A DNA stretch of 64,000 nucleotides, from assembly GCF_002874775.1 (NCBI RefSeq), contig NZ_CP020991.1, positions 1,555,225-1,619,224 on the forward strand, written 5' to 3'. Below are positions 25,982 through 28,559 of the stretch, in pieces; within the stretch, counting starts at the first letter, position 1; every line of letters starts with the position of its first letter. This DNA is from Monoglobus pectinilyticus (lineage in GTDB: Bacteria > Bacillota > Clostridia > Monoglobales > Monoglobaceae). A program made the translations under genes and the position numbers. The notes below the pieces were generated by a model. That model was not told where the DNA came from. It did not search any database and worked only from the letters and a program-made list of their open reading frames with translations.

Positions 25982-27277
25982 TTATTTTTCCAGCCGCCAT
26001 ATATGCGGGTCTTTTCTAAAGATTAAGCATGTGATAAGCCCGATAAATCCCAGCCATAAAAATAAAAAAGCGGCTCCGGCGCCTTTTCCTTGCCCAAATA
26101 ATGTAACAAATATGCTTGCAGCTGATTGTGACGCCATGAACGGTTCAAACACTTTGTCAACCAGAAATCCTCCAAGAAAATAACCGATTGGTATAGTGAA
26201 AAACTGTAATGTGTTTCTCGCAGAATATACGCGGCCTTGCATATTAAGAGGGATATGGTTTCTGAAAAGAACATCCATGTTTGCGTTCATAAACGGTATG
26301 GCTATCCATCCTAAAAATGCTCCGATACACCAAACGGGAACGCTTTTTCCAAATGCAAGGAAAAAGTTTTCTGTGCTCATTGCAAGCAGAAGAGAATTGC
26401 AAATTATACGAACCCGGCTTTTGGGTGATGGAATCAGTGATACGAGTATGCTTCCTCCAACCATTGCGAGACCTGATACCGCATTGACTATTCCGAGTGC
26501 AGACTCACTGCCGGAGCTTTTGGATAGAACCATAGCCGGAAGCGCTGCTTCAAAAACTGAAGCGGTAAAATTTATTGCAGCCAAAAATAGTATGAGGTCT
26601 AAAATTCCACGGTTGTGTCTCAGATACCGTATTCCGCTTTTGGCGGATTCGAGCACGGATTCTGCTTTAGCGTTCTCAGTTGATATAACTTTTGGTATTT
26701 TTACAAAGAACAGCAGTGATAAGAAAGCTATTACGAATGTAAATAAATCAAACGCAATAATCGTTTGAATATTGCTCAGCGCCAGCAGTGCGGTAGATAT
26801 GACGGGAGTCATAACGTTTACCAATGAATTTGAGAATGCTCTCATACCGCTCGCTTTTTGATAATGTTTTTTAGGTGTAAGCAGACTGATAGTTACATCT
26901 GCTGACGGTTGCTGTATTGAGTTCATAAGACCGTTTAGTGCATTCAAACAATATAAATGCCATATTTGCAGTTTGCCAAACAGCAGCAGAATCAGGACAG
27001 ATACAGTGCAAACAGCAGCAAAGCTGTCGCAGACAAGCATAGTTGCTTTTTTGTTCCATTTGTCGCTTAACGCTCCTGCAAATATGCTTATAATGACATA
27101 AGGCGCATATGAACATATTGAAAGCATTGAGGTCTTTAAAGCGGACCCTTGCTGCTGATATGACCATATTATTAACGCAAAATTTGTCATTGAACTGCCG
27201 AGGGTTGAAAATGATTGTGTGAGCCACAGTATAATAAACGAATGCAGCTCATATATTAATTTTTTTATTTTATTCAT
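25982..27277 (-). CDS. MFS efflux transporter (drug:H+ antiporter-like, MFS_3 group)
   Basis: 431 residues with about twelve membrane segments. The N-terminal half resembles macrolide-efflux-type transporters: the LWLTQSFSTLGSSMTNFALIIW opening segment and the loop-2 motif GALSDKWNKKATML that corresponds to MFS motif A. A central basic loop separates the two halves. The substrate cannot be read from sequence. The gene is preceded by a translated leader and alternative RNA structures, which suggests induction by a ribosome-targeting compound. The SD AAAAGGAG lies 10 bases before the ATG. Confidence 0.82.
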   Translation of the reverse strand: MNKIKKLIYELHSFIILWLTQSFSTLGSSMTNFALIIWSYQQQGSALKTSMLSICSYAPYVIISIFAGALSDKWNKKATMLVCDSFAAVCTVSVLILLLFGKLQIWHLYCLNALNGLMNSIQQPSADVTISLLTPKKHYQKASGMRAFSNSLVNVMTPVISTALLALSNIQTIIAFDLFTFVIAFLSLLFFVKIPKVISTENAKAESVLESAKSGIRYLRHNRGILDLILFLAAINFTASVFEAALPAMVLSKSSGSESALGIVNAVSGLAMVGGSILVSLIPSPKSRVRIICNSLLLAMSTENFFLAFGKSVPVWCIGAFLGWIAIPFMNANMDVLFRNHIPLNMQGRVYSARNTLQFFTIPIGYFLGGFLVDKVFEPFMASQSAASIFVTLFGQGKGAGAAFLFLWLGFIGLITCLIFRKDPHIWRLEK

Positions 27278-27280
27278 ATT

Positions 27281-27410
27281 GACTTTGCTCCTTTTAATTT
27301 TGAAATTATCTCATAAAATGCAAAGTCTTTTAGGGACATTCTGTTTTATTGCTCTATGCGGTTCGTCCCTATTTGACCTTGCATAGAGCTTCAGCAATAC
27401 TAAGCTTCAT
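27281..27410 (-). promoter_or_regulatory. Two-state translational attenuator upstream of the MFS gene
   Basis: Four pairings are visible on the minus strand. A: GCTCTATGC (27389-27381) with GCATAGAGC (27359-27351), plus GGT/ACC inside. B: TAGGGAC (27371-27365) with GTCCCTA (27337-27331). C: GACTTTGC (27327-27320) with GCAAAGTC (27288-27281), extended by TTTTA/TAAAA, enclosing the pump SD. D: the same GACTTTGC with leader GCAAGGTC (27382-27375), one G-U pair. A+C hides the SD. B+D stack as one hairpin around an AAA/AAA loop and leave the SD free. A excludes D and B; C excludes D. Confidence 0.75.
27369..27410 (-). CDS. 13-residue leader peptide of the MFS attenuator
   Basis: ATG 27410 to TAG 27369 encodes MKLSIAEALCKVK. 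The SD AGGAGG (27420-27415) is perfect and four bases before the ATG, stronger than that of most genes here. The stop codon is the first triplet of pairing arm B, and codons 8-12 contain arms A and D. Position and overlap with the arms are what mark it as a regulatory leader. No peptide homology is claimed. Confidence 0.7.
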   Translation of the reverse strand: MKLSIAEALCKVK

Positions 27411-27446
27411 TTTTCCTCCTAAGTATTTATTTAAAATATAAAATTT

Positions 27447-28559
27447 TTATTCTAAGCCGTTCATTACAAAATCCACAAGATCCTGTGTTGAATTTGGTTT
27501 TGCTATTGACTTCATTGCTTCCTGCATAAGTTTCATCCGGTCATCGTTAACAAACATTTGATAAACCGCTTCATCTATTGGATTTGTGCTGCTTATTCGC
27601 ATGGCCGCTCCGGCGTTTAATAGAAACTCTACGTTTCTGTCCTCCTGACCCGGAATCGGGTTATTAATAAGCATTGGTATCTGTTTTGCAAGCGCTTCGC
27701 TGGTGGTAAGCCCTCCGGGTTTTGTTATAATACAGTCGCAGGCGTCCATAAACACATCAACGTTGTTGATATACCCATAACTGTATATTTTTTTCCGTGT
27801 TTCCATACTGTCTATTTTTGTTTTAAGCTTTTTATTGTTTCCGCTGACAGATACAATTTCAAAATCCATATCAAGCTTATCCAATTCTTCAATTTCTTTA
27901 TATACAGCTCCAAACCCCATACTTCCGCTCATAACAAGTATTGTATGTTTACTGTGGAGATTTAGAATCTCTTTAGCCTTACTTTTCTCAATTTTTCTTG
28001 AGAATTTAGTACCGATTGGTATTCCCAGTGGTAAAAACTTGTTTTCTGGAAAGCCCTTTTTTATTCCCTGGATAGTAAGCCTTTCATTAGCGATAATATA
28101 GTAATCAAGCAAGCTGTCTTCCCAGTAAGGATGTATAGTGAAGTCTGTTATTACTCCAATAGTTTTAGCGTTAAGACGTTCTATTGATGAAATATAAGTA
28201 ACCAGCAGCGCAGCGAATATGTGTGTGCAAATAATAAAATCAGGTTTTTCTTTTTGAATAAGTTTTATCAGACTTCTTGACAAAACTGAATTTGTTATTC
28301 TATTCAGTCCGTGTATGCCGGCACCGGACTGTACTCCGCGTTTTTCGCACATTCTATATACGCCGCCGTAGATTTTAGGTATAGCTTTGGTGGACATAAG
28401 ATAAATCTTATTTACAGAATCTGATAAAATCGGGTTTATAAATTTGTATACATCCAGGTATTTGCATTCGACGCCGCACTCGTTGAAACGTTTGCTGATC
28501 ACCATGGCTGTTTGGTTGTGTCCTTGTCCTGCTGTTATAGATAATACTAAACCTTTCAT
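27447..28559 (-). CDS. GT28-family diacylglycerol glucosyltransferase-like protein (UgtP/MGDG synthase type)
   Basis: 370 residues. The N-terminal MKGLVLSITAGQGHNQTA is the GxGHN loop of the MGDG synthase domain, followed by the Rossmann half with VMSGSMGFGAV near 195 and the donor site TKPGGLTTSEAL near 275 and the NPIPGQEDRN loop near 300. Such enzymes add sugar to diacylglycerol at the cytoplasmic membrane face, giving glycolipids that can also anchor lipoteichoic acid. It lies 52 bases after addA and just upstream of the attenuated pump gene, in the same direction. Confidence 0.82.
   Translation of the reverse strand: MKGLVLSITAGQGHNQTAMVISKRFNECGVECKYLDVYKFINPILSDSVNKIYLMSTKAIPKIYGGVYRMCEKRGVQSGAGIHGLNRITNSVLSRSLIKLIQKEKPDFIICTHIFAALLVTYISSIERLNAKTIGVITDFTIHPYWEDSLLDYYIIANERLTIQGIKKGFPENKFLPLGIPIGTKFSRKIEKSKAKEILNLHSKHTILVMSGSMGFGAVYKEIEELDKLDMDFEIVSVSGNNKKLKTKIDSMETRKKIYSYGYINNVDVFMDACDCIITKPGGLTTSEALAKQIPMLINNPIPGQEDRNVEFLLNAGAAMRISSTNPIDEAVYQMFVNDDRMKLMQEAMKSIAKPNSTQDLVDFVMNGLE

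Follow-up and report, generated by a model that had tools for sequence, protein, structure and literature searches.

Translational attenuators of the erm and cat type, such as that of the ermC leader, are among the closest known systems to the leader described here. In the erm systems, a structure that sequesters the Shine–Dalgarno (SD) sequence is opened by a ribosome stalled in a short leader ORF (PMC10219788, PMC4335068). Similarly, cplR of Clostridioides difficile is a clostridial resistance gene with an uORF and an SD-covering hairpin that is opened by stalling, and the passages on its induction name retapamulin and lincomycin as inducers (PMC10201436). The mef(E)/mel attenuator, according to its summary in PMC4335068, places a leader peptide ahead of an MFS pump, and toiL of Escherichia coli is presented in the relevant part of PMC12121999 as a uORF in which a stalled ribosome unmasks the ribosome-binding site (RBS). 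A further relative in kind is uORFC-6-1 before hflX, which the corresponding section of PMC8632094 treats as a uORF from comparative genomics, with an RNA that covaries and a peptide that probably stalls in response to a drug.

Leader ORF and RNA arms upstream of the pump gene

The window, that is, the whole stretch of 64,000 nucleotides that was analysed, carries on its minus strand (27410–27369) a 13-codon leader with a full SD before an MFS pump gene, as had been proposed in the original prediction, and all the RNA arms named there were found in place by sequence. Read along the minus strand, the features are:

27415..27420, minus strand: SD of the leader, AGGAGG, from the sequence; an SD-like motif was present in 128 of the 133 distinct pump leaders tested
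27369..27410, minus strand: leader ORF MKLSIAEALCKVK-stop, 13 codons, from the ATG at 27410 to the TAG ending at 27369
27381..27389, minus strand: arm A, GCTCTATGC, a putative partner of A' or, through CUCU, of the pump SD; from covariation
27375..27382, minus strand: arm B, GCAAGGTC, the putative anti-sequestrator and a copy of arm D; covaries with C, with three-way agreement of B, C and D
27365..27371, minus strand: arm E, TAGGGAC, nested within the B:C helix; E:E' also occurs in set A3 (see below)
27351..27359, minus strand: arm A', GCATAGAGC, which covaries with A
27331..27337, minus strand: arm E', GTCCCTA, from the sequence and a comparison of E:E' runs
27320..27327, minus strand: arm C, GACTTTGC, the putative partner of B (ON) or of D (OFF)
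27281..27293, minus strand: pump SD, AAGGAG (GGAG at 27291–27288), overlapping arm D, GCAAAGTC (27288–27281)
25982..27277, minus strand: MFS efflux pump of 431 aa, starting at the ATG at 27277; assigned by Pfam and NCBIfam scores

The upstream neighbour of the leader is a glycosyltransferase-like gene, the stop of which lies 36 bases before the leader (best NCBIfam match, diglucosyl diacylglycerol synthase, below the cut-off), and 91 bases separate the leader end from the pump start. The pump scored 108.7 bits against Pfam MFS_1 (cut-off 33.4); its nearest NCBIfam model was the H+ antiporter TIGR00900 (168 bits, below the cut-off of 319.6), and a search of PDB sequences with it gave no match. 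An identity as a Mef macrolide pump was ruled out by the NCBIfam Mef(A) score of 114.4 bits against a cut-off of 675, and judged by its sequence the protein is only distantly Mef-like.

When the window RNA was folded, none of 200 dinucleotide shuffles equalled the real fold (z −3.73), and the two competing folds appeared as the minimum-energy and the centroid structures, with equal energy. No family of Rfam 15 matched positions 26900–27600 at its gathering score; four sub-threshold matches had E-values of 0.87 or worse. A simple consensus scan of positions 27200–27700 found no terminator-like site on the minus strand, so control of the pump is probably exerted in translation.

The sister strain TSDC17.2 (L114) has a pump 98.6% identical to that of the window, preceded by the leader MKLCIAEALCKV, with three differences over the 181 bases compared; its record has no feature annotated at the leader position. 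We also noticed a Ser in the window leader at a place occupied by Cys in the sister strain and in most relatives, and a leader end one codon further on. A search of 11 further genomes of the genus, not all of them complete, gave no pump.

Conservation among related pumps

A search for related loci gave 77, of which 72 were compared together with the window (73 in all); L058, L072, L076, L077 and L078 were left out, being matches that started inside the protein, partial or distant matches, or loci without upstream DNA. A word search for the leader, allowing at most 6 of 18 letters to differ, was positive in 68 of the 73, the window included, and missed L070, which was added by the covariance model. 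The leader was thus found in 69 of the 73 pump loci, and its presence in these relatives excludes chance. The original prediction depended on conservation of the leader start, the SD and the arms, and these were kept in relatives with compensatory changes. In L024, L029, L037 and L059 the script picked irregular arms; these loci were dropped from later counts, leaving 64.

The leader was not found in L003, L004, L005 and L073, either by the word search or by model R2 (described below) at E 0.1. L003, L004 and L005 are Clostridium pumps, 71–73% identical to the window pump, from which the whole leader is absent; the L073 pump is 34% identical. In the tree of pump sequences, the three rows from Clostridium formed one clade (100/99) inside a supported group of leader-bearing pumps, which suggests a single loss. 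The same tree grouped Paenibacillus, Sporolactobacillus and spirochaete pumps with clostridial ones, suggesting transfer or misassigned MAGs. It was used with caution, as 7 of its 72 rows were unreliably long, most probably through wrong reading frames picked by the script.

The leader peptides varied, with MLLINDT, MRRCVV and MRLCRG types among the relatives. In a subgroup mostly of Ruminococcus and Oscillospiraceae (L023, L024, L026, L028, L029, L030 and L062) the arms were seen to have moved, with GCARGGAATGACGG, the complement of which runs into C, and a leader ending in CKE or CRE. In one further locus (L085:1501-1667) the leader lies ahead of only an apparent pump-gene remnant.

Covariation of the two folds

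Two exclusive folds, one of them closing the pump SD, had been proposed from the window alone, with arm B imitating the SD flank D. In alignment A1, which holds 51 of the 68 leaders (4 irregular, 9 long and 4 near-copies were left out), both folds covaried. The OFF helices A:A' and C:D were 95.7% paired, with slid controls at 43.7% or less, and both sides had changed in 9 of their 17 pairs; the C:D cells taken separately were 98.8% paired. The ON helix B:C was 98.3% paired (slid controls 50.2% or less). Arm C could pair at all eight positions with both B and D in 55 of the 64 loci, compared with a mean of 46 and a maximum of 50 in 1000 shuffles, and among distinct B/C/D triples the full fit of C was seen in 24 of 31 (shuffles: mean 17, maximum 22). 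The best E:E' run had a mean of 7.5 within loci and 5.5 between loci.

Set A3 contains the element where it stands before genes other than this pump (42 of 45 candidates; L163, L167 and L194, close to kept rows, were left out). Here A:A' was 99.7% paired, and B:C plus E:E' 97.4%. In a simple test the longest C-side complement included SD letters in 24 of the 42, so the OFF hairpin is less uniform in A3 than before pumps.

Without drug, the pump SD may be shut in two ways. In one, A:A' would form and C would cover the SD flank (D); in the other, B:C would form and arm A itself would lie over the pump SD. The behaviour of the 5' part of A bears on this second lock. In A1, the three CTC positions of A:A' showed 2, 0 and 0 double changes, against 6 and 16 at the next two pairs; the corresponding numbers in A3 were 0, 0 and 0 against 18 and 14. 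Position 5 of A was C or T in every one of the 64 pump loci, and either base could pair with G. Such constancy is what pairing with GGAG would demand. It is strong and not absolute, because CTC was changed in 3 of the 64 rows and position 5 is G in L108, where the element precedes a gene for a methyltransferase. These exceptions fit the rival view that A pairs with the pump SD only incidentally, through its likeness to an anti-SD, the 5' end of A possibly being conserved only through A' (GGAG). We regard this by-product reading as rather unlikely, in view of CTC positions that hardly change in either set while the neighbouring pairs change with compensation, and of the unbroken C or T at position 5 before pumps. 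A second lock formed by arm A is the reading that we retain.

The same element upstream of other genes

To follow the element in other genomes, two covariance models, R1 and R2, were used; the R1 genome counts are lower bounds, since few candidates were scored per genome. In the genome of the window (2.76 Mb) R1 gave one match and, overlapping it on the opposite strand, a second one at E 0.99. In the order, at least 2 of 51 genomes carried an R1 match (the window genome and L083); in the class it was at least 27 of 391 (both included) and in the phylum at least 5 of 398 (the window genome included). L083 (R1 5.6e-8; R2 42 bits) was judged to be chance or a remnant, because it has only the leader and first hairpin, with no C and D arms and no gene at its end. 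Weaker R1 matches lay before CatA-like genes (followed by Vat-like genes in two loci), Cfr genes and a methyltransferase gene, and before CD3324-family genes followed by Vat-like, GNAT or TrmH-like enzymes.

R2 was built from 36 sequences, eight of them from upstream of non-MFS genes and one from upstream of a distant MFS gene. At E 0.001 (the E-values are rough) it matched 61 of 348 genomes in one family and 48 of 194 in a second. Together the two families gave 126 matches, 4 of which were left out of the locus set. The loci contained 153 matches, of which 151 were carried forward after two weak second matches had been dropped; one site is counted twice (L168, L233). The next gene was an MFS gene in 89 cases and a CD3324 gene in 34; Cfr genes followed 8 matches (7 distinct), ceramidase-like genes 4, CatA-like genes 3, esterase-like genes 2, Lsa-type ABC-F genes 2 and other genes 7 (L083 included), and 2 matches had none; in one of these last two, L207, the sequence at the contig end starts like ABC-F genes. 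In the loci added after R2 had been built, 106 of 118 matches ended within 6 bases of an ORF start, the ORF having been chosen by a script with a preference for near starts.

These names stand for BLAST clusters with HMM-tested representatives. The representatives of Cfr (L111, 621 bits against a cut-off of 550), CD3324 (L087, 110 against 65) and Lsa (L228, 772 against 750) were above their cut-offs; the CatA-like L105 and the Vat-like L087 and L105 were below theirs, and the ceramidase-like L213 had a weak Pfam match below the cut-off. A gene behind CD3324 was found in 32 of 34 cases: five were Vat-like, and the rest were GNATs, alpha/beta hydrolases, nucleotidyltransferases and others. The CD3324-family proteins (L087, L109, L112 and 31 loci between L159 and L227), of about 87 residues and weakly Mor-like, are the second commonest target, with very different enzymes behind them. 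It was also seen that L233 (646200-649300) has tandem copies of the switch, one before an Lsa-type ABC-F gene and one before the next gene, Cfr. Ceramidase-like (L145, L148, L155, L213) and esterase-like (L150, L183) proteins lie behind leaders of the pump type, and they might inactivate the sensed drug; a search of PDB sequences gave no match for the ceramidase-like L213 and various esterases for the esterase-like L183.

At E 0.1, R2 had no match upstream of the plasmid cfr(C) of C. difficile (L116), of a CatA-like gene of Pusillibacter (L113) or of the 26% identical MFS gene of the window genome (L080), nor in L076 and L077.

The arms were read in different frames before different genes. The frame GCT CCA TGC was used in the pump leaders, and also ahead of CatA-like (two leaders), esterase-like (two) and ceramidase-like genes (three). 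Among the CD3324 leaders, 31 of 34 used CTC CAT GCA, as did all 8 rows for Cfr and the two for ABC-F; a few leaders had TCC ATG CAA. The script did not place L104 and probably misplaced L148, and the start of the Cfr leader is uncertain, with no SD before the chosen start in 3 of the 8 rows. With the frame changing in this way, it is the RNA and not the C-terminal peptide that keeps the letters of the arms constant.

On balance we favour the view that the element is a portable RNA switch, conserved in letters and folds, which has been recruited before at least six unrelated gene families (the MFS pump; Cfr; Lsa-type ABC-F; CatA-like; CD3324 with Vat-like or other enzymes; ceramidase-like and esterase-like), its leader being re-read in other frames. 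The RNA would be the constant part and the peptide an exchangeable drug sensor, the stalling arm would serve as an anti-SD in a second lock, and the switch would mark unrecognised inducible genes for resistance to ribosome-targeting drugs.

The leader as a coding sequence

Codons were analysed in 142 distinct leaders out of 155 pump leaders (L110 and L172 were skipped) and numbered from the GCT codon. An in-frame start lay exactly 7 codons before GCT in 107 of the 142 and 5–11 codons before it in 134; 8 had none. Over codons −6 to +4, frame 0 was free of stops in 138 leaders, as against 94 and 109 for the other frames. The consensus was M-x-L-C-I-[A/V]-x-A-P-C-K-V, with Leu and Cys kept through synonymous codons. 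Leu stood at −5 in 107 of 142 and was written with at least five codons (CTT/CTC/TTA/TTG/CTA; third-base entropy 1.95 bits); Cys (TGC/TGT) stood at −4 in 91 and was absent there from the other 51 and from the window allele. Ile was found at −3 in 103, in 100 of them as ATT, and Ala or Val at −2 in 101; codon −1 was free. This codon pattern indicates that L-C-I is selected at the level of the peptide.

Modelling of a stalled ribosome

We infer that ribosomes translate the leader and are stalled in it by a drug acting at the peptidyl-transferase centre, and we consider it quite probable that the element is a leader-peptide translational attenuator in which a drug stalls the ribosome at about codon 5 and frees the pump RBS. 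A ribosome reading on through the leader would cover B, and C would close over D. An antibiotic-stalled ribosome at about codon 5 (after M-x-L-C-I) would have its footprint on A and leave B free; once covered, A could pair with neither A' nor the SD, B would take C and the RBS would open.

A footprint of −15 to +13 was moved along the leaders of 62 loci, and pairing was scored arm by arm together with a wide RBS. This scoring replaced SD accessibility on the four SD letters alone, which gave a blurred picture because arm D adjoins the SD. In the free RNA of the 62 loci, two states coexisted in the model, one with A:A' and C:D and the other with B:C and A:SD; the A:SD pairing (CUCY on GGAG) was 0.90 in the window and on average 0.42 over the 62 loci. 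With the P-site three codons before GCT (−9; codon 5 of MKLCIA), B:C rose to 0.79, and A:A' was 0.07, C:D 0.18 and A:SD 0. Mean RBS openness at this point was 0.51, against 0.32 in free RNA and 0.40 with the P-site moved back by one codon; one codon further on the state was mixed, and from −3 on C:D reached 0.91–0.98. The RBS maximum fell at −9 in 41 of the 62 loci, and the mean peak remained at −9 or −6 when the footprint end was varied from +10 to +15 (22 loci). A gain of more than 0.1 over free RNA was obtained at −9 in 45 of 62 loci. When the gain had to exceed 0.1 over both the free and the read-on states, 33 of 62 real loci passed, compared with 11 of 186 shuffled ones; in the remaining 29 it was 0.1 or less. 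The peak at −9 and −6 recurred in the 34 CD3324 and 8 Cfr rows (one Cfr row being a duplicate); the modelling showed no effect in the ABC-F rows and no clear peak in the CatA-like and ceramidase-like rows.

Across the family, the stall site given by the model falls on the selected residues L-C-I, and this supports the model independently. For the window, it had been predicted that the fold would differ with the leader blocked and that a stall near codons 3–6 would allow the ON state. The folds did differ in the modelling, and, in line with the predicted stall site, the window RNA opened at codons 1–5, or at codons 2–6 with a shorter footprint, and closed later. Its gain was modest (RBS unpaired from 0.32 to 0.47), and since codons 1–5 were about equal, the window as modelled does not by itself single out codon 5. 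The observation behind the original prediction is confirmed as real, and its interpretation as a leader attenuator is supported.

That any stall at codons 1–5 opens the window RBS about equally could also point to a general sensor of translation stress, stalled by many kinds of inhibitor and switching on a multidrug pump, like toiL of E. coli. The loose conservation of the leader peptide would suit this explanation, as would targets elsewhere that include hydrolases, GNATs and kinases. Over the 62 loci, however, one position stands out, a stall at the start codon gives a gain above 0.1 in only 15 of them, and L-C-I appears to be under selection as a peptide. We therefore think a general sensor unlikely and prefer a leader that is stalled by a drug at about codon 5.

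Candidate signal

The Lsa drug range shares the peptidyl-transferase centre with the targets of Cfr, CatA and Vat. The signal is likely to be a drug acting at that centre, because the recognisable targets of the switch (Cfr, Lsa-type ABC-F, CatA-like, Vat-like) converge there; the NCBIfam names assign CatA to phenicols and Vat to streptogramin A. Chloramphenicol, which the section on drug specificity in PMC12121999 describes as stalling after a penultimate Ala, Ser or Thr, is not singled out by the model, since the penultimate residue at the computed stall is Cys. Lincosamides, pleuromutilins and streptogramin A are described, in the parts of PMC12421871 and PMC12121999 that deal with them, as stalling at start codons, the position at which few of the modelled loci opened.

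The frequent Cys at −4 and Ile at −3, beside the computed stall site, could instead mean that the leader senses a shortage of one of these amino acids, the ribosome halting at a hungry codon and opening the RBS by the same folds. This is very unlikely, as Cys is absent from the window allele and the other leaders lacking it at −4, leaders in other frames before other genes share no hungry codon at the stall place, and Cfr, Lsa, CatA-like and Vat-like proteins do not belong to amino-acid metabolism. It is scarcely probable that the RNA itself is a ligand-binding riboswitch with an incidental small ORF: the arms are indeed kept at the nucleotide level across different leader frames, but the leader ORF, its SD and its Leu and Cys codons are under coding selection, the Rfam search of positions 26900–27600 was negative, and the loops vary in length and sequence.

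Comparison with described systems

Leader-peptide translational attenuation is a known kind of mechanism. In the passages of the open PMC literature that were covered, no description of this element was found. As far as was searched, the family seems new, and so do its distribution among several resistance genes, the independence of its arms from the reading frame and the proposed double lock. Two of these points, the putative second SD lock by arm A and the occurrence of the element beyond this pump, go further than the original prediction. If the interpretation is true, a single RNA element reports genes of Clostridia and their relatives that are switched on by ribosome-targeting drugs, and a guild of inducible resistance in gut and soil bacteria would include the uncharacterised pump, the proteins of the CD3324 family and a number of hydrolases and transferases. 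M-x-L-C-I would then be a new short candidate stall peptide for drugs of the peptidyl-transferase centre, and the element would exemplify an attenuator in which the SD is locked twice.

The likeness to erm, cat and mef/msr control that had been claimed for the locus holds for the release of an SD of the erm/cat type; that to mef/msr is only broad. The mef(E)/mel attenuator, as outlined in PMC4335068, is transcriptional, with an MTASMRLR leader and a Rho-independent terminator, and with the leader MKLSIAEALCKVK and no terminator-like site in the scanned part of the window a mef/msr transcriptional attenuator was ruled out. The cplR/vmlR type was likewise ruled out: the portions of PMC10201436 on these uORFs give three codons (MR[I/M], MIN), against 13 in the window leader. 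For cplR the same account has the uORF MR[I/M] together with a transcription terminator, whereas the leaders found here mostly have 11–13 codons, no terminator-like site and other arms. According to the relevant part of PMC12121999, toiL opens on stalls at many positions; here one position dominates over the 62 loci, although not in the window. The uORFC-6-1 element is portrayed, in the section of PMC8632094 devoted to it, with an Arg-Leu-Arg peptide, mainly in Bacillales and before hflX. Compared with the erm/cat type, the anti-sequestrator B of the present element lies directly after arm A, inside the leader and upstream of A', arm A would double as an anti-SD, and both the peptide and the arms are unrelated.
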